From positions 1-64,000 of the forward strand of contig WION01000183.1 in assembly GCA_015039365.1 (NCBI GenBank): 64,000 nucleotides of DNA. The letters run 5' to 3'. Of the stretch, positions 13,842-62,041 are shown piece after piece. The position numbers were made by a program, and so were the translations under genes. The DNA is from Amanita rubescens. Its lineage: Eukaryota; Basidiomycota; Agaricomycetes; Agaricales; Amanitaceae. How positions within the stretch are numbered: the first letter of the stretch is position 1; the number at the start of each line of letters is the position of its first letter. The notes under the pieces were generated by a model that made no database searches, was not told where the DNA came from, and saw nothing but the letters and a program-made list of their open reading frames with translations.

Positions 13842-14807
13842 TTACAGATGTTCCCCGGTCTTTCCTGGTAGCCGCAATCCGTTAACAATCGCAACAGCGT
13901 GATAGAGCCTCTGCCCGCCCTCATCATAGCCGCCATCAATTGGTCTTTTTCCGTGGGGGGTGCGCCCGTGGGAGGTGAGCACAAACTCCATCTGTACTGG
14001 ATCGTATGGCAAGAGATCGTATCGACCACGATGGGGGTGTTCGTCCCCGCAGTAGGAGACGAAAGGTTTAGCAGGCGAGCCTTGTCGCATTTCGATTTTG
14101 CAAGGGAAGACTGAGCGCTCGAAAAGCGCTGAGCCTATGTAGATGGGTGTACCGTCTGCTTCGTAGCAAGGTGGGATCCCTGCTTCGGGTTGACCGGGGA
14201 ACGACGCAGAGTTGGTGTCTAGGACGATCCGATGTCTCGATGAAGGGGGTGTGGTTTTTTCACTAGTGGGGGTGTAGGCCGGTGGTGGTGGGGATGTTAG
14301 TTGGTTGGAACTAGAAGCGTTGCCGAGGTCTCTCTGGTTGACCGGTGGTCCTCCGTATCCATCCCCGTGTCCGGAACCATAATATGCAGAAGCAGATCCA
14401 CGACTTTGATCGGAAAGTTGATTCGGAGGATAATCACCATATCCGTGCCCGCGTTGAGGATACCCTGGGGTAGGCATAGGAGGGGCGTGTTGACGTCCAC
14501 CGCCATGAGACCCACCGCCGTCACGGTAGTGCGGGTCCCCATGATTGGCACCATGTTGCTGACCGCCGAGCAGTCCACCGATAAGGCCAGAGATTAGGCC
14601 GCCGCGATGATCTTGGTCATGTCCTCCACCGAGGAGGCCGGAAATTAGCCCGCCGCGGTGTCCACGTTCGCGTCGACGTTCTGTATTCTGATCAGGATAA
14701 CTTGCGCAGTCATAGGGTGAATTCGTACCACGACGACGTTCCCTCCTAGTGTGACGCCTCCCGTGGTCTCGGCTTGAGCTTGAATCGCTATCTGACGAGT
14801 GACCCAT
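13842..14807 (-). CDS. DM9-domain protein with Gly-rich repeat N-terminus
   Basis: An uninterrupted 321-residue frame starts at the first true ATG (14807), reading MGHSSDSDSSSS; the frame is open further upstream but has no ATG there. The N-terminus is Ser/Arg-rich. Two RGGLISGL repeats and an LIGGLLGG stretch follow, then a Gly/His/Pro/Tyr-rich linker (about residues 40-210). The C-terminal ~110 residues read PIYIGSALFERSVFPCKI, SYCGDEH, GRYDLLP, then GYDEGGQRLYHAVAIVNG and LPGKTGEHL. This is the DM9 pattern (gGyE..G..LY.a......pGK.g.hl) known from mannose-binding lectin-like proteins. A cytoplasmic sugar-binding or agglutinating role is an inference. No signal peptide is present. A TATA box lies about 50 bp upstream. 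Confidence 0.85.
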   Translation of the reverse strand: MGHSSDSDSSSSRDHGRRHTRRERRRGTNSPYDCASYPDQNTERRRERGHRGGLISGLLGGGHDQDHRGGLISGLIGGLLGGQQHGANHGDPHYRDGGGSHGGGRQHAPPMPTPGYPQRGHGYGDYPPNQLSDQSRGSASAYYGSGHGDGYGGPPVNQRDLGNASSSNQLTSPPPPAYTPTSEKTTPPSSRHRIVLDTNSASFPGQPEAGIPPCYEADGTPIYIGSALFERSVFPCKIEMRQGSPAKPFVSYCGDEHPHRGRYDLLPYDPVQMEFVLTSHGRTPHGKRPIDGGYDEGGQRLYHAVAIVNGLRLPGKTGEHL

Positions 14808-14857
14808 GTTGTCGAAAGAAGGAGAGAATTGAGGCAACAGAGCCGGCCTCAGCACTG

Positions 14858-14864
14858 TTTTATA
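14858..14864 (-). promoter_or_regulatory. TATA box of the DM9 gene
   Basis: TATAAAA on the minus strand, 51 bp before the ATG at 14807, in a region otherwise without coding potential. Confidence 0.6.
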
Positions 14865-15930
14865 AGTAGCACGTTACCCAATAATATGATGAAGTGATAC
14901 TATCTTACGCGAGTCACAGCATTGCGGCGCCCAGATGAATTACGTACACAAGCAGTGGTCACTGGTAGCGGGTGCAATCCAACAGCATCGGATGCAATTG
15001 GAATCTCCGTCAACTTCCGAGCCATAACGGCAAGTCGTTGTGTCTCTATGTCTCTAACTACTATGATAGAATTGCCAGCGCCGTGAATGTTCATAGACTC
15101 ATCAGTCTTGGAACCGGAATGTATATAAATAATAAGCACCGTCCAACTGCGCGGTCACACGGCTTTGTTCTGATCCCGGGACTCGGAGTACGTCATAAGT
15201 TCGCGTCCACGAGTCGTAGTTCCCAGTGCTGCCCCCGTCATCGCTTTCTCGAACATTGCGCATCGATGGGAAAAATCTGCGTACCTATCATAAATTCCAT
15301 CGACAAACCTTGCTCATTGTCCTTTTGCTTTCGAGCCTTGCACAGCTTAACCTCTCCATTGGTTGGTGGATGTGCAGGCCGGAACAGGATGCATTGCCGG
15401 ATAGAAGACTAGCCCAATTCTTGGTTATGTCTTGCTCTTTTGCTTCCACTGACTCCAACGATCGCTTAGCGCTCTTCATGAATTACCGGATAGATTCACT
15501 GACTGCATGAGTACTCATCAGCCATTCACGCTCTCCTCCGGACGAACATGCTCACCATTGCTCAGATCGCATGACTCTTCCGTTTGTTAGACACAATCAC
15601 CATCGAAGTCAACGACCAGGAATTCCAATGGTATTAATCATCAAACACCACTTACAGCGTTGGGATGTAAATGTATAGCTTCTTTCGGTAAGGAAAAAGT
15701 AGTACTTTTTAACCGAGTTTTACCCGCGCAAATCAAATCCTCTGTGGTAAAATTGATGCATAGCACACTGGCGGCGGTAATGTCGGCGGAGAGGTGATCT
15801 ATGCATTGAATTGGAAAAGACCGTGATGAGTTTCGAGTCTCCACATATGTATGACAATGAGGGTAATGGATTTCTATCGTGTAAGGGGTTATGAGCCGTT
15901 AGTTCGAAAGCACTGTATGATAGTTTAACT

Positions 15931-24476: not shown

Positions 24477-25457
24477 CTAACCAGAATCACCATCGGTCGT
24501 CCATAAACGACCGAGTGGCTCGGATGTGCCGTGTATAAGTGGTTCGATGGCGGTCCAAATCTCATTTGTAACTTGTTCGATAGAACGACTGGCATCGATG
24601 GTAATCCACCTCAGTCGATCTTGTCGTACCACATCACCGGCGCCACCGCGATCCTGGACTATCACAGGATCTAGCGTACCCACCGGCTCCGGTACTTGTT
24701 GTAGAGGTGGCGGTGGCGGTGGCTGGGTCGAGGGCCCTCCTCCCATCTCGCTCGCCATCCTCAAAAACACCTCTCTGACTCTTTTTTGCATTTCTTCCTT
24801 TTCGTAACGTTCCTGCCCGTATCCGCCTCGTTTCCTTGCGTGTTCGGGGGATATGTCGAGGAAGAGGGTGAGGTCTGGCGAGGGGAGGGAGATGTCTGGT
24901 GCGCGGCACCATGTGTAGGGGAGGCCTTTAGCGTGGGAGAAGGCGATCCCTGAGAAGGCGTAGCGGTCAGCGAGGAGGATGGTAGGTTTAGGAGTTGTAT
25001 CTGCATCGAGGGATGCGGTAAGGGTTTGTTGGATGGATGTGCTGCATAATCATGTCAATTCGATTTCAGGACGCAAGTAGAGGAACCCTAAAACGTTTCT
25101 TTTTTCTGCCTTCTCGAGAAAAAGATAAGTACGGCGTACGTACGCGAGTTCCCATCGATTTGCGGAGAAGAGTAGATGGATCGCTCTGTCGTCTAGATCT
25201 GACTGGGATCGGAGGTAGGCATCGATCATTTTGCCGATAGGCGTCGTGCGGTCTGGTTTTAACCGATTAGGTTGGATATTTTTGAAGGGGGGAGCTAGGA
25301 TGTTTTGGAGGTACCACCTACCTGGGAATTTGATGAGCTTTGCTGGGATGCCATGTTCGTGGAGGCGGGCGAGGATGGCGGAGGATTGGGTGGATTTTCC
25401 GGAGCGGTCGAGGCCTTCGATGACGATGAACGCGCCGCGTTTTATGTTGGTCATCAT
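24477..25457 (-). CDS. CDC8: thymidylate kinase
   Basis: Exons 25322-25457, 25144-25252 and 24477-25041 give 269 aa. The P-loop reads IEGLDRSGKSTQ, followed by the FPGDRTTPIGKMI motif (dTMP-binding Asp-Arg), FSANRWEL, LADRYAFSG and LDISPEHARKRGGYGQERYE. It phosphorylates dTMP to dTDP. ATG at 25457 is the first of two adjacent Met codons 10 residues before the P-loop strand. Compared with the ~215-aa family norm there is an insertion near residues 200-235 rich in Gly and Pro (a run of six Pro) between the helix after the lid and RWITIDASRS. Intron 2 is 102 nt, the longest in the left half. Confidence 0.95.
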
Positions 25458-26384
25458 GGTTTTGGGTCGAGTGCGATAAGGCAGACATATGGCTGGCACG
25501 CGGCATGGCTTACACCTCATGATTCCTTCAGCAAAATTGGGACCAAGGCCTAGCGTAAACCCTGAACTTCAAGCTTCGAAGTCCTACATTCGTGGTAACA
25601 GTAACCAAGCTGTTCCGCTCCTAAAATTTTGTCTAGACGGTCAACTATGATTTTTTATTATTTAATATTATTTTTATTATTTCCTTGTTTTAATTTAGGC
25701 CCGATGTCACATCATATAGTCCCCTCCGGTTTGCTGCTGCACCCTGCTCTATGCATACAGCAATATATATTGCATTGTACAGTACATTTTGTATGAATAG
25801 AAAATCGAGGACAAGGTCAGCACTGGGCACGTCGAAATTCGACGTACGTGACAGTGTAACGTGTTACACCACACTCTTGCCCTGCCCCTCCCAGCCTCGA
25901 CTCAGCTCGGCAATCGCGAGTCGCGGGCCTGGTGATGATCATACTCGACCTTTGCGAACGACTTGAGTTCGATGCCCTGAGATGCCCTAGGGCAACATAC
26001 AGCACATGTATTATCCACCCGGTTTATTCCTTCGGTAAAACTTAAAAGGCCATGTGCCTCGAAAGACACTTACGAAGCCATATGACTTGACCTGTATGCT
26101 TCCTGCATGTGACGTACTTATGATAATCTTCATCAAATGATTGTGATGTATGTATAAAAGAATCACTTCCGTTCTATGAGAATCACGCTAATCTCTGTTG
26201 TAAGTTGATCAATAATGAGGGCATTTCACAGGCATAAGAGGTCTCAAGGAGGAGTAGGCACGGCAACTCACACTCGGGAACTCCTCGCCGTGCTCCGTCT
26301 ACCCCGAACGCGTCAATTGTCCTAAGTATAAAATTTGAACGTGCGCAGGGCCTCGCATTTATTTTATTTTATTCGCCTCACAAT
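25458..26384. other. intergenic region with GH76 promoter
   Basis: An AT-rich stretch lies at 25650-25695. TATAAAA at 26327-26333 sits 52 bp before the GH76 start codon and is its likely TATA box. A second TATAAAA at about 26153 has no gene of its own. Confidence 0.5.
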
Positions 26385-28320
26385 ATGTTCGTTCTATCTG
26401 GGTTTACTCTACTAGTCCTCGGCGCTTTGCAGCTGACTGCAGCGCAGGATCTAGGCGTTCCTTTATCATGGAGAGTACGTTTCGCGTGTCTTGCACACTT
26501 ATAAAAGAAATTCAGCCTTTTTTTCACAGCATTTCTCCAACCTTCGCTCCCTTGCAACACGTATCGCCATTTCTCGGAACGCGATAAACACCATTTTACC
26601 GCAGCTCACTCCTTCCGATGCTCAATTCAATGGCAAGTTTCCAAATAGTGTAATTTACTGACGCTGAGGGTTCGCAACATCAAGGTATCGGGTGGTGGCA
26701 ATCTGGCAATGTCTGGTCCGCCATAGCGAACCATGATTATCACGCCAAGACTAGGACATACCAGACCCAAGTCATTGACAACATCAAAAAGGGGTGGAGC
26801 CTTTATACCAACTTTGATCCGTATGAGTAAGTTATTAGTCTATCTTTATGTTTAGCAGGGAAGAGTAGTTGACGAACATAATTGCAGGGTAAGCCATCCG
26901 CTCACTCTTCATATAACCTTATAGACTGAATCAACTTGGGGATAGTACAATGATGATGCACTGTAAGTTTTCCCACCGATCATGGAATTTCATAATCACA
27001 TCGAGTCTAGGTGGTGGGCGACAGCGGCCCTGTACGCCCACAGAGCGTACGATGGTTCCACCATGTTGACATATGCCATTGATACTTGGACGCATGTTTC
27101 AAAATAGTGAGATATCCTCAATTTCACGTACTCCCCGAACTTAGCTGTGCATAGCGTTATCTCGGAGGCAGATGCAGCATCTGGTCGTATTTCGACAAAA
27201 AGTTTCGCTATTGCGAAGACTTGCTCCGGACGTACGTATTTGTAAAAATCAGGGCTTCTTATATTCCTAACAATGCTTGTACGCGTATTCAGACACTATG
27301 GCTGGAGGCGTCTTTTGGGTACGTGTCAAGACCATGTGAGCTTATTGCATATGTATACTGACTGGCCTCGATCCAGCGCCCTATCTCTGGTGACACATCC
27401 ATCAACTCTATTACGACTGGGTACGTTAGAATCAAGATTCCAGTTCGGTCTAGACTTGTCGATGACGTCTGTTGTTTTCTTCCTTTTTTTCTGAAAGGTT
27501 GTACATGACGTATGTTTTCCCTACGTTTACATGCCAAACATCGCGTCAAACGTTCGATCAACAGGCTCTCTGCGTATCTTGCTGAATATACCGGTGAGGC
27601 GAAGTATACCGAAGCAGCCATTCTCAGCGCACAATGGATCAAGAATGTCAACCTCAATTCTAAACATATTGCTCTGGACTTTATCAACGCCGACGATTGT
27701 TCTCGCTCACCCTCCTCGTGGTTGTTTACGTACAACACCGGCAAATTTGTTGAAGGACTGAGCGTGTTGACTAGTGTGACGAAAGATTCTTCGTGGAAGG
27801 ATTTGTAAGTAAATATGTTTTCTAGGTGTATTTTACTAATATGCGAGTTGGCGGATAGGATGACCTTAGTCGTTGCGAATGCGACCAAGTCGAGTGCTTG
27901 GGAGGGAAGCGATGGGATTATCACTGAAGGTTCAAGCACTGAGAGCGGCAATGACGGTGTTGGATTCAAAGGTTTGTAATTGGAACCTGATTATCTTATC
28001 GACTGAAATTGTTATCCCTTAAGCCATCTTCATACGTGGCCTGGGTGAGGCGTTCGTGAGAAACACGGAATACTCTCATTTTGCTATTTTGATTCAAAGC
28101 TATATTGACGTTCAGGTGAGATTGCATTGTTGCTCATGGCAGACTAAGCCCATTAGGGCTGACCCTGACTTTTCTTTCACCGTAGTGCAATGCCCTTTTG
28201 GAGCTTGCGGCGAGTGGTACATCGTATTCCGCAAATTGGCACGGCCCTCCCATGGCTTTTACTACATGGGGACAGATGGCTGCATTGGATGTGCTAGTTT
28301 CCGCTATCCCAGGTTATTAA
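26385..28320 (+). CDS. GH76 secreted alpha-1,6-mannanase-like protein with a 1-nt exon
   Basis: Fourteen exons: 26385-26474, 26530-26632, 26685-26826, 26888 (one base), 26946-26962, 27011-27106, 27155-27231, 27293-27318, 27377-27420, 27498-27509, 27565-27804, 27859-27971, 28024-28115 and 28186-28320; sum 1188 nt, 395 aa. A signal peptide (MFVLSGFTLLVLGALQLTAAQ) is followed by GH76 motifs: GWWQSGNVWSAIANHD, YNDDALWWATAAL (catalytic Asp pair), GGVFW, LSAYLAEYTGEAKY, WIKNVN, DGIITEGSS, GVGFKAIFIRGL, and NWHGPPMAFTTWGQM. The family cleaves alpha-1,6-mannan or remodels GPI-anchored wall proteins. Intron 2 appears to be GC-AG (GCAAGT). The 12-nt exon 10 and 1-nt exon 4 are both required by phase. 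Confidence 0.94.
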
Positions 28321-28929
28321 GGCTAATACATACGTAATATATATAAACTCGAATCCGCTATCGCACTCTTGGATATATGTTTTGGCCATGTCCGTATATA
28401 ACATGTAGCGAGTGGGATGAGGCGCGACGATGATTTATGTCTGATCAGCGGGTGACATGATGACCGATGACCGTTCGTTATGATATATCCTAAGTGATGC
28501 TTATGTAGGACCAACTGGGGATGTGATTTCGCCTGACTTTTAGATGCCGATCATACCTCAACATGATGTTTCTAGTAAAGATGGGGATATAAATGAATTA
28601 TTGGATACTACTCAGCGCGCGATCATCAATAAGGATAAATAATTTGAACACGAGTCACCTAGGTTCGCACACTTAAAGACTTTTACGTCCCAAATCGGTT
28701 TCGAAAGATATCCTACCAACCACACAGTACGTGACGTCCCTTCCAACCAGCGCGTGCCATGAAATAGACCAAGCTCTGGACCTTTCGATGTAGGTTGGAT
28801 TTATTTCCTCTTTCAAGTTTCCGCTAACGTCAAGTGCTGTCTGCCTCGTCTGCCCGCAGCCCCACGCGGGAATATAAATACTAATGGAGGCTGATGCAGC
28901 TCGCTATGCCACTCGGAGGGCACCATTTC
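28321..28929. other. intergenic region with promoter of the first membrane-protein copy
   Basis: TATAAATA at 28873-28880 lies 50 bp upstream of the ATG at 28930. No other coding signal is visible. Confidence 0.5.
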
Positions 28930-35790: not shown

Positions 35791-38700
35791 TCATCCCATT
35801 CTCGTTCTTGAGCTCGAGCTCTTTAACAGCTCGCTCAGCTTCGTAATCACAATACTCTTCTCTCCTGTTCCAGTTCCAGAAGCTTTCCTGTCATTATCCC
35901 CTCCTCTCCTGTCATTGTCCCCTTCACTAAGTGGAAGCGAAAGACTCGACCGGCTTTGATACCGACCTCCCAAGACGAGTGAGAACCTCCTCGTCCTTTC
36001 CCTTTCCTTCGCTCCATTTGCAACCATACCACCCGACGAAAATCCCTCAATTGTCCCACTACCCGAGCCCATAGGCACCGTACGCGCAGTGACGTTCAAA
36101 GGCTGCAAAGCGATCGCAGGCAGGGAAAACCGTTTTTTCCTCTTCACCGTTGACTCGACAGGCTTCGCAGACGTGTGCTGCTCCTGTTGGACCTGTTCCT
36201 GCTGCCGAGAACGTTCATCAACACCAATGGGTACAGTTGCACCAGGCGTTGGCGAATTGAGCAGTTGTTCTCGACGACCCTGACACCCGTTTTGATCGTG
36301 ACTGCCAGTGGAGCTCTCGTCCCTGACCACGCCCTCAGCCCCTTCGCCGAACCCTTCCAACACGTGCAAACTACTTGATGGTCTGGGGTTCGGACCTTTA
36401 CCGTTCAGCGACTTCAGCCTCAACCTTCCTTTCCTCCCATCTACAAGCGGAACCTCACCCATCCGCGCTCCAGATGTTCTCTCAAAGTCCATCCCCATCA
36501 GCGCTCTAGGGGACGAAGGTGCCGAATCGGTGCCGCTCGCTTGGACTGAAAACGAGGGTGTCGAAAGCCATGCGGCAAAATTAGACAGCGATGTTATGGT
36601 GTCCCAATTATGCGAGTTGACCTCGTCATTCGAATTACGATTGAGATCCGAATCATTCTGATCCCTACCATACTCTGCTTCTGGATCTAGGACAGGGAAA
36701 ACCGTCTCGTAACACACGTTGCAAGCTCGAGCCGGTTTGCTCGAGCTGTCATCGTCTCCTGCGTCCGTGATGTAGAATGTCTGTCAAACACGCATTGTCG
36801 ACAATCGCATATGGAAAAAAACGAGTACCTGAGGCCTACCTTTTCGGAACACCCCCCACACACGCATCGTCCGCAGAGTCTGCAGTGGTGCCTGCGCCTT
36901 CTCCAACCAAATCCTTGGCCACAGCGCATACACTCCCTCGTTTTCTCGTCCGGTATCCAGATAGCAGGTACCCAGTGATCAACTTTTCTCCTTCTGCCGG
37001 ACGTTTCGTTGAGATTTTCAACTTTCGCTCGGCCTGGACTTTTACCGTCTACCAGAGACACAGACGACGCGGCCGGTGGAAAGGGTAACGCTTGCAACGA
37101 CTTTCTGACGTGATGTGTAGACGCCGACGACGTCAAAGTCGAATTCGGATTGGTCACGTTGAGCGAAACCAATAGCTGCGCCTTGGCCTGACGGATTTTG
37201 CCCACCCACTCATCTCTGTCGTGTTCTGTCGCTAAGGCGAGCACGGTGAACGATTAGCGAAGAAAGCTCGTGACGAGACTATCTCACCTGCATAAAGGGC
37301 GAAACTTCCTTCAGGACTCAACACTTCAAACCGTCGTTGTTCGCCGCCCCATTCAGAAGACACGACAACCTCGACGTCGACCAAATCCAGGCGACCCTTG
37401 TACACCCATCGTTCGTCCATACCTCCCCCTCCGTTCCCGTTCCCACCATTTGTAGTGCTGGGTATACCCGCCATAGAGTGTCTCTTGGGCTTAGAAACAA
37501 GAGGAAATCTCATCCCCCGAGGCGAAGGCGGAGGAGTAGACCTCACGGCCGAAGAAGCCAATGGCAAATGCGCCTCGCTCATACACCTGTTTCTATTGCC
37601 ATAAAAGGGCTTTGCGTTCGCGTCTGCCACCGACTCGGAACTCCCGATGATTTTCGAGCTTATCCTTCCGCGCCATTCGCCCAACGCGTCTTCGAGCTCG
37701 CCGCTACCCCACTTTCTCGCTAACCAAACGAGGCAATCTGAGAATAAAAGGAATTCTCTTTCCCTTGGTGGTTCACTTCTCTCGATTTGGTATAACGGTC
37801 CGCGTTTGAGGAGCTTGCGCCCGGGAAGGACGAACTGGAAGGGAGGGGAGAGCGGGAGGTTGGTGGTGGAGCGTTGCAATGAAATGAGAGAAAGGGTCTC
37901 TGCGTGAGTTTGGAGAGAGGTGTTGAGCGAGGACGTGACTAGGAATGAAATAGTTAGTTCGACAGTTGACTATATATGAGCAACGTATCTTGAACTTACT
38001 CTTTGACACTAGATCAAGAACACGTCCTAGTTTCTCGTATTCGCCTTCCTCGTCTCCACCAGTAGGCTCTGTACATCTCCTCAAATCTTTCAACAAGAGC
38101 AGGTACCTCGGACATCGTTGAACAATTGTTAACATCCAATCTCGGAATTTGAGTTTACCGCATTGCGGATCGGATTCTTGTTTGAGGAGGAATTCGGAGA
38201 AGGGTTTGGAATAGTTTGGGTTTGGGTGGGAGAACGAGGGTGGTGAGGTGAGCGAAGCGAGGGCGGATAGTATGGAAGGGAAGGCGGTGATGAAGGGGTT
38301 GTAGAGAGATAGGTAAGGAAAATGGGAGAGGAGGATTGGAGAGAGGGGAAGTGGTGGTTGCGAGATTGCGGGATCCGCGGTACCAAGAACAGTGGCGGAC
38401 AGTGGCATGGGTGACAGATATTCCGTCAGAGCCTCGAAGAAGGCCTTGTGCAAGTTCCAGATGTCGATAAAGTTTGAGAACAGGTTGGTTAAAGCCGCTC
38501 TGTTCAATAGAGGCTCGGAAGTTTCGAGCGATGCGATAAGAGGCGAGAGGAAGTGCTAATGCAGACCAGGTCATGGGGGCTGAGGAGTAACGGCAGAGAG
38601 GCGGACATACGTGGTAGATGAAATCCAGCCCATCGACATACGTTTTTTCCGTGTCATAGAATTCGTGTATGATTTTGCGCTTTCTCTGCTCTCGAGCTTC

Positions 38701-39200
38701 TCTGACAGACGCGCTGTCGATCTTGACGTTACTTGCTGTTGAAGCATCAGCAGCTTCTGAGGACTGCTTCGTTTTGCGTCCTTCTTTATGGCGGCGGCTC
38801 TGAGGGGACTCGATGGATATCCTTCGTGACCTCCTAGGGGATGCGGCAATAAGCGAGGTAGAAGACGAGGTTAACGAGGACTTGTGCTGGCATGAAATAG
38901 GCGCGAGATTCGGAGTGGTAGCACTGAGGCTGACGGGGAAGGAAGCGTCGGCTGCCTCGCCTCCGACCTCTTCTGGTAATGAATCAAAGGAAGAGACGCT
39001 CGCCACGGATTGGCGCTTCAGGATCGAAGTAGGGGTTGGGAATGAAATTCGACGGAATGGCAGGTGAGGAGGGCGAACATGGGAGTGATTGGAAGAGCTG
39101 GAGGGAAAGTTCACGGTCGATTGTGACGGCGAGACTAGAAAGTAAACGTATCAGTTATTCATCTGGGTAAGATTACTGGAGCGCACATACGGTGAATCAT
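35791..39200 (-). CDS. FYVE-domain Rho guanine-nucleotide exchange factor (DH-PH-FYVE)
   Basis: Six exons: 39191-39200 (10 nt, MIH plus one base), 38611-39134, 38000-38555, 37288-37938, 36840-37231 and 35791-36780; 1040 aa. The tiny first exon is needed because the long N-terminal frame has no ATG; its phase-1 junction fits. Order: Ser-rich N-terminus; DH domain about 150-365 (KIIHEFYDTEKTYVDGL, WMLTIVQRCPRYLLLLKDL); PH domain about 385-600 split by a low-complexity insert (LLKRGPLYQIE ... EHDRDEWVGKI); FYVE finger about 667-740 (WVPAIWIPDEKTRECMRCGQGF, RRRRHHCRLCG, ACNVCYE). It should activate a Rho/Cdc42 GTPase at PI3P membranes. The C-terminal 300 residues are disordered. Confidence 0.93.
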
Positions 39201-56331: not shown

Positions 56332-59254
56332 TTACAATGGTTGTTCATGCATTACCAACTGGTGAACATGAGCAACGACAGGCCAATCGTCCTTTCCAGA
56401 TACTTGGTCCTTCGCACCCCTGCGCAACAAGAAACAGTGGTCAACTGTCCACTTCTCGCCCCTACTCGGCTCTTGCACATCCTCGACCGTCATAATGCTG
56501 CGAACGTACAGCCAAATCTCCTCCCCTGACTGTTCGCTCCAAAACTCCACGTCGACTTTCTTGTTCCCGTCCTCATCCAACTTTTGGGAAAAGTGGGTGC
56601 GCTGGAGGTCATGAAGGGACGATGATATCTCAGGGTGGCCTCGGGCCGTGCGCAGTGGAAATGAATACCCTCTTGATTGCGGCAACGCAGGGGAGGACAG
56701 TGCGGGATCCGGCGATATTGGCGAGCTCTCACATACGCGGTATATAAACTTGGCATCGGGTGCATAAGCCGAGATCAACACCGCGCGATCTGTTTCGTAC
56801 AATTGCATATACCTGTACATGATACAACGCGTTAGCCTAAACTTGTGAAAAATCACACATATACGTGCTTACCTAGTCAAAAAAACGCGCGAAAGACCAT
56901 CCAAATCTGCATCTTTCATTCCTTGGCTAGGCACCACCGGACTTAGCACTTGCCCCGGGCCAGAAGGAATAGCTTCACTCTCCACCTGATCGCGCTCGTC
57001 ATCGCTCTCGTCATGCGCCGTACCGATGCTAGCAACCTCCGCAGCCTCCATCTCATCTCTCAGCAGCTCGTCTTCCTCGTCCTCAACCAACTGGTCTTCT
57101 TGTTCTTCCTCAACATCTTCTTCAATCCGGTCGCTACTTTCCTCTGGGATCACTTGAATCACAGTCCACCCGGAAGTCTCCCCAAGAACGGGCTCGGGTG
57201 ACTTGGCTCTGGCGGAGGCGATGACAGTAGCGTCATCCCCAACCGCTTCTGTGCCAACAACACCAAAACGTGCAACCGGGGTCTTCTTCTCAGGACGGCT
57301 GCTCCTTCGCCCCGGTGGACGATAGATTGTTTTAAATGGTTTGGACGGCAGTTCAGGTGGGACGACGACTTTGGACAAGGAAGGTCCCAACGAAGGAAGT
57401 CTCTTGGCGGCAGGACTGCTTCCGGATGATGATGTGGTTCGTCGTCGAGGCGATGACTTTGGAGATGCATTGTTACGCTGTGAGAGCTGGATGGCCGTCG
57501 CAAGGTCAAGCGAGGCGCGTGGGACGGGCTGGCGTTTCCGTTTTGGAGATGCCTGCGGTTTTTGGTTAGGAGAGGGGGAGACGAGCGCGGTAGGTGGAAT
57601 GGGCGTTGGTGGTGCTTTTTGAGAACTTGGAGCATCTGCCGTTACAGACGGCGGTGCTGGAGAGGATTGCACAGGGTGCGGAGTGGTTACGGATGGAACG
57701 GACGTTTGTGGTGCTTTTTGAGGACTTGAAACTGCCGCTGTTGGAGATGTCGGTGCTGGAGAGGGTGGTTTGGGTACATCATGTGCTGGAAAAGTTCCGG
57801 ATGGAACGGATATTTGTGGTGCTCTTTGGAGACTTGGAGCAGCTGCTGTTGGAGATGTCGGTACTGATGAGGATAGTGCCGGTAGCATGGGCACATTAGG
57901 CGACTGAGGTTCTGCATCCACTTCCGATAATGTAGGTAGGATGTCGATTGAGTCGGTATCCCCGAGATCCGTCTTGCTCTGGTCAGAGCCCTTGGACACT
58001 TCCGGCGATACTGGTTCCAGCGTGTCAGCCCACACGGGGACCTTGCATTTCCTATCAAAAGATGAGTAAGGGAACCAAAATCGAGCGTCAAGTATGCTCA
58101 CCATTGGATCGTAATTCCGTCACTGCTTGAGGCAGATAAATACTAATGATCACAAGAGAGAGCAACAATGGCAAGACATACCGCGTCATCCATTTCCCAA
58201 TTAATTCAAGTCCTCTTGCTTTCAACTCTCGTTCCTTTGCTTTCCTGAACTCGATCCTATTGGCCTCCCATTTAGGATGGGTCCTATTGCAATTTTCGGG
58301 GAAAGGATAGAATTGGTATAGGCTTGATACAGACTTGCGTTGTACGCTGGGAAGCGGAGGACTTTCAGGTTCGCGTTTGACTCTAATCGGGGGAGTTGCA
58401 GGTGCTTGTTGCGTAGGATGATGCAATGGTGAAGGGAGAGCAGGAGAAGGGGTATGACGATCATTACTCGTCTTCTGTTCCGGGAATACCAAAGATGACG
58501 GAGAAAGCGGGAGAGGGAGGGGCCGACCGCATAAAGGAGATGCGTTCGTAATGACGCTTCCCCTCGTCATGTTGGACGAGATGGGACTGACGAATTCAGG
58601 TGTCAGATCAACCTTTCTCCGCTTCGGCGACTGACTGCGTTCCCTAGATCGACTCTCCGCTTCCTCAGCTTGAGAGTACGCGATCATCGTAGAAGCAGGT
58701 CTTGGCACCAGCGTTGTAGATAATCCCGACAAAGGCGCTTTTGGTTTGAGCGCAGGAAGCGGTATAGTGAACGGTTTAGTGCGTTCCTCGTTTGAATTGG
58801 CACTTGCAGCATCGCGCTGCTGCGAAGATGGAATGGGCAGAGGTATAGGACGAGGCCGGCGACCTTCGAAAGGAACAAAACCATTTTTCCGTTCCTGGTG
58901 ATTATTTTGCCGGTCTTCTTGCGTCTTCCATTGAACCTGCCGATATTCACCCGCAACAGCACCGTTGTTTACGTGGCCGGCAGATCCACGTTCAACCCTC
59001 GCCGAAGGCTGGCTAGGCCCGTCTCTGCCTCCATATGCTCTCCGACCACCTCTCCTCGCCATTTGCGGCCCTATTTCTCTGCTTCTGACTGCCGATGTCG
59101 TCGCGACCACAGGAGGTAACCCCACACCTTTACGCTTCCTCAATGTTTCGTTGGGTTGCAAATCTTCAGAATGCACCGGTGTTGGATTTTTCGTCGAGGC
59201 TGCCTGCGCCTGCGCGGCGGTCGCAGCCCTACGTAGCGCGAAGCCGTTTACCAT
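56332..59254 (-). CDS. long disordered protein with C-terminal NTF2-like domain
   Basis: Exons 58182-59254, 58102-58122 (21 nt), 56873-58051 and 56332-56812 give 917 aa. Residues 1-320 are disordered and basic (RRRKV, RPRPIPLPIP). LYQFYPFPENCNRTHPKWEANR, RELKARGLELIGKWMTRDGITIQWK follow. A 390-residue middle part is rich in Pro/Ser/Thr with repeated S(S/P)QKAP-type phrases, then an acidic run (EEDVEEEQEDQLVEDEEDE). The last 160 residues start RVFLTRYMQLYETDRAVLISAYAPDAKF, an NTF2-like fold as in Mex67/NXF tails, and contain FLLRRGAKDQ. A nuclear, RNA- or export-linked role is plausible but unproven. Confidence 0.82.
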
Positions 59255-59532: not shown

Positions 59533-62041
59533 ATGAAGTCCTTTCCTATGTCAAACTCTAGCCTTCGTCCACCTCTTGTTCGATACGGCGTCTTACCCAC
59601 TATGTCTCCAGAGGAATCTCGAACTCTCTGGTGTTTCCTGGAAGGCAATTCAATGCCATACGACGTCTTCGACATTCCGATTGGTACCAACGTCATTGAA
59701 TTGAAGGCAATGATAAAGGGGAGAATCAAATGTCTCCATGACACAGACGCTCGCCATCTGAGGCTTTTGAAGGTCATTCCTTTAATACCAAGGGCGTGCA
59801 CCTTCTGACTTTCTCTTTCAGCTCAATATGATGGTTCCTATTGATCCGGATCGTAGTCTCGCGCAGCGATTAGCAGACCTGGGTAACATCGCCGCGTATT
59901 CGAGAGAGTTGAGTTCTGGAGAAGAAATGGGGGAGCTATTTCCCGAACCGCCTTCCGACAAGCATCTCCACATTGTGGTTCAGCGCCCTGGGATTGTACC
60001 GTCTAGTCTGAGTGGTGAGTATTGCTGGTTCATTGTTCATGTATGAGCAGAACTGACGCGTTGAACTTCTCACCTCACATGCACATCTTTGTTTTGATCG
60101 TCCTCATCGCTCCTATCTCAACTCAACACATGACTTACGTGCTTGTCGCATGTTTCCCACCGCTGCCTCTTTCTCAGCCTCTCGGAAGCGCTCTCGGTCC
60201 GCAACAGAAGAGGATGGCCAGGCAGCAAAGCGCCAGCAGATTGGTGGGATTGCGCAGGACGTACAGACCCATTGTATCGCTATCCATAAAGCGATCCAAG
60301 CCATGCCTGATAATCTGAACTTGTCTGATCCCTCGACATTTACGACCCTTCCTTTCCCCTCGCCCCTCTCAATGCCTCACCAGCGCTTTGAATGCAAGGA
60401 AATCAATGGCATCGACCACTTTGAATACATGGGGAGATCTCAGTTCCACAAATTGCAAGAGCGTATCAAGAACAGGAATTTTCTCGAGGGAGCTGAACCC
60501 ATATACCTGTACGGGACGTCTGGTTCAGGGAAATCACATCTCCTTGCTGCGCTTGTGTATCGCCTCGTTCGTGACGGAAAACGCGTCTTCTACATTCCGG
60601 ATTGCTACAGCTTGCTTCTGAATCCGGAACAGACGATACGGGCTGCATGGCATTTTGCGTTCCACGACTCGCCTGTTCTGGGAACCATAGAATATCCCCA
60701 CGATGTCGATGCATTGATTCGTTCGACCAAAAACGATCGAGACATCTACATCATCGTCGACCAAGTGAATGCTTTGGAGGTCACAGAGAATAAGAGCCTT
60801 GAGAAAGAGAAGCAGCAGGCAATAGATTGGCTTGACAACTTGAGGTTCAACCATCGATACATATTTAGCGCTTCAGCTAATGAAAATTCCTATCGAGAAG
60901 CTTATAAGAAGCAAAATGGAATTTCGGTTTTCGAAATGTTTGGAGGGATGAGCAAGGTATGCTGATACCTTCACATTGTTCCACACAATACTCATGTCCT
61001 GTAGGAAGAAACCGATCAGTGGTTTAAGTGGCATGGCCATCGGATTCCACCATTGTCAGATAAACAACGGCAGCTCGTCGAATATCTCACGGGTCGCATT
61101 CCGCTTCTGCTGCGTTGCCTTTTCAACATGCCCAAATTTGTCGAACTCGAATTCAGGAAACAGTTTTATTTGCGTAATGTCAAATCTGATGTCGATGAAT
61201 TCGCTAGAACCAAGCTTTCGTTGTTAAAACCGTTGAGCAAGAAATGGTAATGCACCTGTTATTTTCCCTTCCATCTAAGTTAATATTTTGTAATAGGTAT
61301 CTCGAGATCATGACAGCATGTGTTCAGGGTGATCATGTTACAACCGACAACCGAAGCTTGTATGATCTGCGGCACTTTTATGTTGACACCGAACAAATTG
61401 GACGTTTTACGTGCGGAATTGCCTTTGAAACGATGGTATCAATATTGCGAATGGATGACAATGCTTCATTCCTGGGTGGTTTCTGGTACACAACAGTTTC
61501 ACAATCTGACAATCCTGCTGTTCAGGGCTTCTTGGCTGAGCAAATTTGCCTTAGCCACATTTCCATTAATGGTCTAAAGGCTGTCCACCCTGAGCTTGGT
61601 CGAATGTCTATTGCAAGTTTCAACACACAACCAAACTTCACCCATCATCTCTCAACTGATCACAAAACCTGTCTGTATATCCCTGATGACTATGATTTCA
61701 TGGCTGTGGATGGCATCATATTGTTGTTGGATCATACCTCCAAGCAGGCCACTGTGTTCTCCATCCAATTCACACTATCCCTGAATGATAAGCAATCAGC
61801 TAAGGATTTCCACGAGAAGTCATGGTCAACTTGGACTGAGCCAATCACCTCAGCTGGGTTCACTGTTCATTCAACTTTTGTCTGGATAGACAAAGAGCAA
61901 CCATCAGAGCATGTCAAACCTGAAGTAGTCAAAGAGCTCCGATCTGGCCATAAGGTTGTTCACCCTGAATATTCTGTGATTCATGTGGGTGTAAAAGAAG
62001 TTTATCCAAGACTTGCTTCTGCCCTTGACATTGAGCAGTAG
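59533..62041 (+). CDS. Crinkler (CRN)-family protein with P-loop NTPase and nuclease-like C-terminus
   Basis: Exons 59533-59772, 59822-60014, 60178-60956, 61005-61246 and 61297-62041 give 732 aa. The header (about 20-80) reads LWCFLEGNSMPYDVFDIPIG and LKAMIKGRI, the CRN ubiquitin-like domain. Next LAQRLADLGNIAAYSREL and LHIVVQRPG, then a basic, NLS-like RKRSRSATEEDGQAAKR. The NTPase has Walker A GTSGSGKS (257-264) and Walker B DIYIIVDQ (333-340). The C-terminus has VDGIIL (622-627) and SIQFT (640-644), spaced like the Asp...(Q/E)xT core of PD-(D/E)XK nucleases. CRNs are translocated or intracellular killing/defence proteins in eukaryotes; the fungal role is open. Intron 2 is long (163 nt). 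The last exon differs in base composition. Confidence 0.9.

Follow-up and report, generated by a model that had tools for sequence, protein, structure and literature searches.

A predicted one-nucleotide exon between two short introns of a GH76 gene in Amanita rubescens

Exons of a single nucleotide have very rarely been described, as the initial annotation of the locus studied here remarked, but precedents exist, including one in a fungal nuclear gene. That precedent is CYP621A, a P450 gene of Fusarium. Its exon is a G in the setting AG/G/GT (slashes mark splice junctions) and is reported to be confirmed by RNA reads; the authors present it as the first one-nucleotide exon in a fungal gene (PMC12940212). 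In Arabidopsis, the one-nucleotide exon of APC11 was proven by base substitutions that were carried into cDNA (PMC4674806). Organellar genomes also provide examples: a one-nucleotide exon is described in placozoan mitochondrial cox1 (PMC5436844), and a similar case in Ceratocystis is cited alongside one from an Ophiostoma strain (PMC12308204). Since such precedents exist, cells can splice exons of one nucleotide. Our searches of the literature on one-nucleotide exons and microexons, Basidiomycota included, found no paper titled on GH76, and in PMC8208691 and PMC8056616 the phrase 'single-nucleotide exon' occurs in the reference lists only.

We analysed an interval of 119 nt in a predicted GH76 gene, located in a window of 64,000 nucleotides of Amanita rubescens DNA. 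We consider it very likely that a single G at position 26888 is a constitutive coding exon, flanked by short GT-AG introns of ordinary type (A and B) which are removed one after the other. The exon is predicted from DNA alone, and from the same letters we infer the use of the splice sites, the sequential removal and the activity of the enzyme.

The GH76 gene and its 119-nt interval

GH76 is the alpha-1,6-mannanase family. The gene, spliced by hand, has 14 predicted exons (Table 1) and would code for 395 amino acids; its CDS measures 1188 nt with the stop included, the length given in the initial annotation. The product containing the one-nucleotide exon matches PF03663 (Glyco_hydro_76) with an E-value of 4.6e-27 and 95.9 bits, above the curated cut-off of 25.9, and its N terminus, judged by eye, looks like a signal peptide. 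D115 and D116 form the adjacent aspartate pair of the predicted protein, and Y113, D115, D116, W119 and W120 are invariant in an alignment with two bacterial GH76 proteins; members of the family are described as having such an aspartate pair in their active site (PMC12295086). Among the exons are some of only 1, 12, 17 and 26 nt. Apart from A and B the gene has 11 introns, 48-77 nt in length, and a GC donor occurs in one; intron 2 (26633-26684) starts with GC (GCAAGT) in all three copies of the locus described below.

Table 1. Predicted features of the GH76 gene around the one-nucleotide exon (positions in the window)
Feature	Position	Strand	Basis
GH76 gene, start to stop codon	26385..28320	+	spliced translation, PF03663
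Exon 3, phase-2 end (TAT GA)	26685..26826	+	open in coding frame
Intron A, 61 nt, GTAAGT..CAG	26827..26887	+	sequence, splice-site analysis
Predicted one-nucleotide exon G, third base of GAG (Glu112)	26888..26888	+	GT-AG flanks, frame
Intron B, 57 nt, GTAAGC..ATAG	26889..26945	+	sequence, splice-site analysis
Micro-exon of 17 nt, for YNDDA plus two Leu bases, including the Asp pair of GH76 (D115, D116)	26946..26962	+	spliced translation, alignment with bacterial GH76
Exon 6, carrying the motif on as WWATAALYAH	27011..27106	+	spliced translation
Micro-exon of 12 nt, same GH76 gene	27498..27509	+	spliced translation

Domain matches were also noted elsewhere in the window. Two ORFs at 24480-25568 on the minus strand match thymidylate kinase (PF02223), and the corresponding gene seems to adjoin the GH76 gene in divergent orientation. 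An ORF on the minus strand (13845-14873) contains a DM9 repeat domain, and one on the plus strand (60057-60962) has P-loop NTPase matches, of which IstB_IS21 is over its cut-off and seven others, including nSTAND models, are all below theirs.

Exon 3 terminates in ...GATCCGTATGA, in phase 2, while the next exon, TACAATGATGATGCACT, reads YNDDA from its first base. Joining 26826 directly to 26946 shifts the frame, as the initial annotation had claimed, and leads to a stop at codon 137; the resulting product of 136 amino acids matches nothing in Pfam even when E-values up to 1 are allowed. The sequences and coordinates which that annotation gave for the interval are all present: intron A, bounded by GTAAGT and TTGCAG, and intron B, bounded by GTAAGC and GGATAG, are separated by one G in the arrangement AG/G/GT. 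Both lengths are normal for this gene, falling within the size range of its 11 other introns, whereas 119 nt falls outside. Among the 17 G residues in 26850-26924, only 26888 has GT-AG introns on both sides. The sites themselves are less exceptional than first described. The acceptor of intron A and the donor of intron B had both been called perfect, but on coarse matrices, for which this predicted gene supplied no more than 11 introns, the former is middling (its score is reached by 27.6% of the 3761 AG in the window) and the latter good (3.2% of 3835 GT). Intron A contains a branch-like TTGAC, with 15 nt following its A; no YTRAY motif lies 7-40 nt from the end of intron B, and the same holds for 5 of the 11 other introns.

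The same mRNA and protein could also result from one non-canonical intron of 118 nt, for instance 26828-26945 (TA-AG) or 26827-26944 (GT-TA). The interval has AGTA at each end, which lets five such single-intron parses yield the identical junction TATGA-G-TACAAT. GT-AG, GC-AG and AT-AC ends are absent from all five, and introns with other ends are rare; their length again exceeds the 48-77 nt range, and the acceptor, branch-like site and donor inside the interval would be left unexplained. We regard a non-canonical intron as very improbable. As the mRNAs are identical, reads across the mature junction test the frame and the 25-nt exon considered below, and do not prove the one-nucleotide exon.

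Copies of the locus in the genome

The genome assembly (75.7 Mb, 786 contigs) contains three copies of the locus, on contigs C94 (that of the window), C169 and C159, and CAG/G/GTAAGC is identical in all three. Relative to the window, C169 has 8 exonic substitutions and C159 has 19, with no exonic indel in either, and the copies differ by two intronic indels, one of 1 nt and one of 2 nt. Within intron A, C159 carries two substitutions (26851 and 26864), and it has another near the end of exon 3. In C159, about 274 synonymous sites hold 10 of the exonic changes and about 911 non-synonymous sites hold 9; in C169 the corresponding changes number 5 and 3; these small counts are consistent with purifying selection and support coding constraint on the GH76 gene. 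Four stretches of the window (14000-14800, 26300-28450, 37900-38900 and 57000-58000) each match all three contigs, in an unchanged order and with identities of 96-100%; those other than the gene itself lie from about 12 kb upstream to about 29 kb downstream of it. C94, C159 and C169 therefore seem to be three haplotypes of the region, either in a polyploid or in a heterokaryon of three or more nuclear types. Searches for diverged GH76 paralogues that could serve as outgroups for the intron position, six-frame and exon by exon, returned only the same three loci, although diverged genes can escape such searches.

Two further sites near the junction were noted in the copies. An in-frame tandem donor lies at 26821, 6 nt upstream of that of intron A, and its use would drop two residues; at 26820 C159 reads CGG where the window reads CCG, and this donor has 5 consensus matches in C159 against 4 in the window. 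A26864 is a second, weak one-nucleotide candidate (AG-A-GT) that would give the same protein with introns of 37 and 81 nt; the base is T in C159.

An assembly indel had been named in the initial annotation as a possible refutation; a one-base error of assembly or sequencing would disguise an ordinary intron. Errors of this kind are generally common, and a systematic one could be common to three contigs. However, the frame needed by the direct join has five stops in exon 3, which led us to reject a homopolymer error within that exon; the last of them lies at 26824-26826, so a lost base would have to sit in or after the last codon or at the start of the next exon, and no homopolymer surrounds these positions. 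Since the three copies agree at the junction and carry no coding indels, an assembly indel is very unlikely, and we accord an error of either kind next to no probability.

Several origins for the interval were tried and rejected. Insertion with a target-site duplication would account for the AGTA at both ends, but intron 27107-27154 has a repeat of equal length at the same offset. That introns A and B are duplicates of each other found no support (129 of 500 shuffles were as good), nor did duplication from any of the 11 other introns, for which the lowest shuffle fraction was 0.055. As for an introner-like repeat, the interval matches only the three known copies in a search that detects close copies only. 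Viral contigs gave no match.

Alternative products and chance expectation

Splicing paths were enumerated with GT or GCAAG donors, AG acceptors and up to three introns. Introns of 30-200 nt allowed 2060 paths, 75 of them open and 14 keeping YNDDALWW; with introns of 40-160 nt the numbers were 746, 37 and 9. Not one of the 14 or of the 9 has a single intron before 26946, and the internal exons that restore the frame in these paths measure 1, 4, 10, 22 or 25 nt. Restoration of the frame is thus a property that G26888 has in common with the 4-, 10-, 22- and 25-nt exons and with A26864. The path through G26888 has the best summed score of the 746 (37.8), with a weakest site of 3.3; the runner-up (33.5) also uses G26888, but its first donor lies 6 nt further upstream, so that the product reads DPYNDD, and its weakest site likewise scores 3.3.

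The 25-nt exon would occupy 26864-26888, between the donor at 26827 or 26821, an acceptor after GGGAAG at 26863, and the donor of intron B, which it has in common with the favoured model. It is open and in frame and adds VVDEHNCR before YNDD. Its first intron would measure only 37 or 43 nt, under the 48-77 nt of the 11 others; the 43-nt version sums to 29.7, and its weakest site scores -0.5 where the one-nucleotide form has 3.3; the 37-nt version falls under the 40-nt limit of path scoring and so has no score.

On Pfam the product with the 25-nt exon scores higher, with 100.7 bits (100.3 with donor 26821) against 95.9, a difference of 4.8. Replacing the extra residues by X gave similar values (99.3 bits with eight X and 100.0 with five, against 94.4 with eleven and 95.9 with none), and the gain is therefore mostly one of loop length. 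We compared both products with the best 80 of 246 confirmed bacterial relatives. These had been retrieved with local patterns and ordered by how similar they are to the one-nucleotide protein, a ranking that may favour its spacing. Measured between WW (second W) and DD (first D), this spacing is 46 in the one-nucleotide product, the commonest value among the best 80 relatives (52 of 80, with 43-45 in 20, 50 in 2 and 56-60 in 6). It is 54 in the 25-nt product, a value absent from all 80 relatives and from all 15 clusters made at 60% identity, although 56-60 occurs. The dominance of 46 owes much to redundancy: by cluster, spacings are 43 (4), 45 (3), 46 (2), 50 (1) and 56-60 (5), which puts 43-46 in 9 of 15 and exactly 46 in 2 of 15. 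A profile of all 80 favours the one-nucleotide form (116.6 against 114.8 bits), while one of the 15 clusters favours the 25-nt form (119.8 against 119.2). Three alternative products that lack the YNDD frame lose 11-12 bits on Pfam and 9-11 bits on the profiles of bacterial relatives, and PDB matches gave no useful alignment of the loop. Homology, as judged by these scores, backs the YNDD frame and hardly tells the two products apart; with profile differences under 2 bits, the choice falls to the splice sites, and we consider the 25-nt exon quite unlikely.

A one-nucleotide exon may also be imitated by chance. The pattern YAGNGTRAG occurs 9 times on both strands of the window against 5.55 expected, and 15 of 100 shuffles reach 9, so that it is not enriched. 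We shuffled the interval 5000 times with its dinucleotides preserved, setting 45 nt as the minimum intron length. A one-nucleotide AG-N-GT exon of any quality arose in 513 of these shuffles, and one scoring like the real one in 35. Some frame-restoring exon of up to 46 nt with an equally good score arose in 166, a chance that is not negligible, the more so as a frame-restoring exon had been sought in the initial annotation. This last figure bears on the reading of the gene as broken or truly frameshifted, with a canonical 119-nt intron, a truncated product and CAG/G/GTAAGC present by accident, a reading also favoured by the direct join being the simplest GT-AG removal. The product would then be the 136 amino acids without Pfam match, and three copies without coding indels, in which synonymous exceeds non-synonymous change per site, would have to belong to a defective gene; we find this highly unlikely.

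Proposed removal of the introns and comparison with known systems

Under the favoured one-nucleotide exon, the spliceosome would recognise introns A and B each by intron definition and remove them successively, either A or B first. Sites one base apart could hardly be occupied at once, hence the removal of one after the other; one-at-a-time removal by intron definition has been argued for APC11 (PMC4674806). The joined codon GA-G (Glu) would restore the frame directly before the catalytic motif YNDD. According to the initial annotation, removing A first creates an ideal donor, as part of an ordered recursive splicing. The intermediate would be TATGAG-GTAAGC, and the change from AGG/GTAAGC to GAG/GTAAGC does raise the matches to a 10-position donor consensus, typed from general knowledge, from 6 to 7 of 10, but the matrix score of donor B falls from 6.41 to 5.63. 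A fixed order is not implied either: removing B first would give TTGCAG-GTACAATG, which likewise leaves CAG before the next exon, and CAG/GTACAAT would also be usable as an acceptor.

Excision of 26827-27010 as one piece of 184 nt would join DPYE-WWATA in frame, and skipping of G26888 alone would give a truncated product. The 1-nt and 17-nt exons together make a frame-neutral cassette of 18 nt with the catalytic aspartates. The cell could in principle switch the GH76 enzyme on or off through the splicing efficiency of the one-nucleotide exon, with skipping leaving a product without the catalytic pair, and the tandem donor at 26821 may add a second choice. We think such switching decidedly unlikely; a piece of 184 nt would greatly exceed the remaining introns of the gene in length, which counts against skipping of the cassette.

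If confirmed, the exon would add one more gene to a very short list, on which the literature searched holds two fungal entries, one nuclear (Fusarium CYP621A) and one organellar (Ophiostoma). It would mean that an unrelated family has arrived at the AG/G/GT solution as well, in a gene with ordinary short introns, and would offer a compact test case of 119 nt for the ordered removal of adjacent introns. It also illustrates why annotation pipelines break such genes.

A recursive splice site amounts to an exon of zero bases: AG is directly followed by GT, and no exon base is retained, unlike in the GH76 gene, where AG/G/GT would leave one G in the predicted mRNA. The two arrangements resemble each other in having a donor directly behind an acceptor (PMC13105047). 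Fungal stwintrons (spliceosomal twin introns) are similar in that two introns lie at nearly one position and are removed successively; in a stwintron, as described, one of the two lies within a splicing element of its partner (PMC5639578, PMC6616335, PMC12403724), whereas the sites of A and B are intact and side by side, with both introns complete and one base apart, and no internal intron splits an external donor or acceptor. The Ophiostoma strain also has a single base between adjacent introns (rnl-576 and rnl-577) in a fungus, but these are mitochondrial group II introns of an rRNA gene, while those of GH76 would be spliceosomal and interrupt a coding sequence (PMC12308204).

The remaining cases are nuclear. 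Like the GH76 exon, that of Arabidopsis APC11 restores the frame between GT-AG introns; it differs in being a plant exon, an A, within an interval of 422 nt (PMC4674806). APC11 and VPS55 of land plants are similar too as genes with one-nucleotide exons absent from annotations, and unlike the GH76 exon theirs are reported as conserved among land plants, with RNA-seq and RT-PCR support (PMC8831610). CYP621A of Fusarium, on the features reported for it, resembles GH76 in several respects: both are fungal nuclear genes with one G between AG and GT, in each the interval is double the normal length of an intron (139 nt in CYP621A, 119 nt in GH76), and in both a conserved motif lies at the joint and the exon was found through frame incompatibility (PMC12940212). 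The gene families differ, and the single nucleotide is the middle base of its codon in CYP621A and the third in GH76 (PMC12940212). CYP621A is documented by 20 orthologues and RNA reads, and GH76 by the DNA of one gene in three copies (PMC12940212). Most likely, G26888 of the Amanita GH76 gene joins these known one-nucleotide exons as a further case, one predicted from DNA alone.
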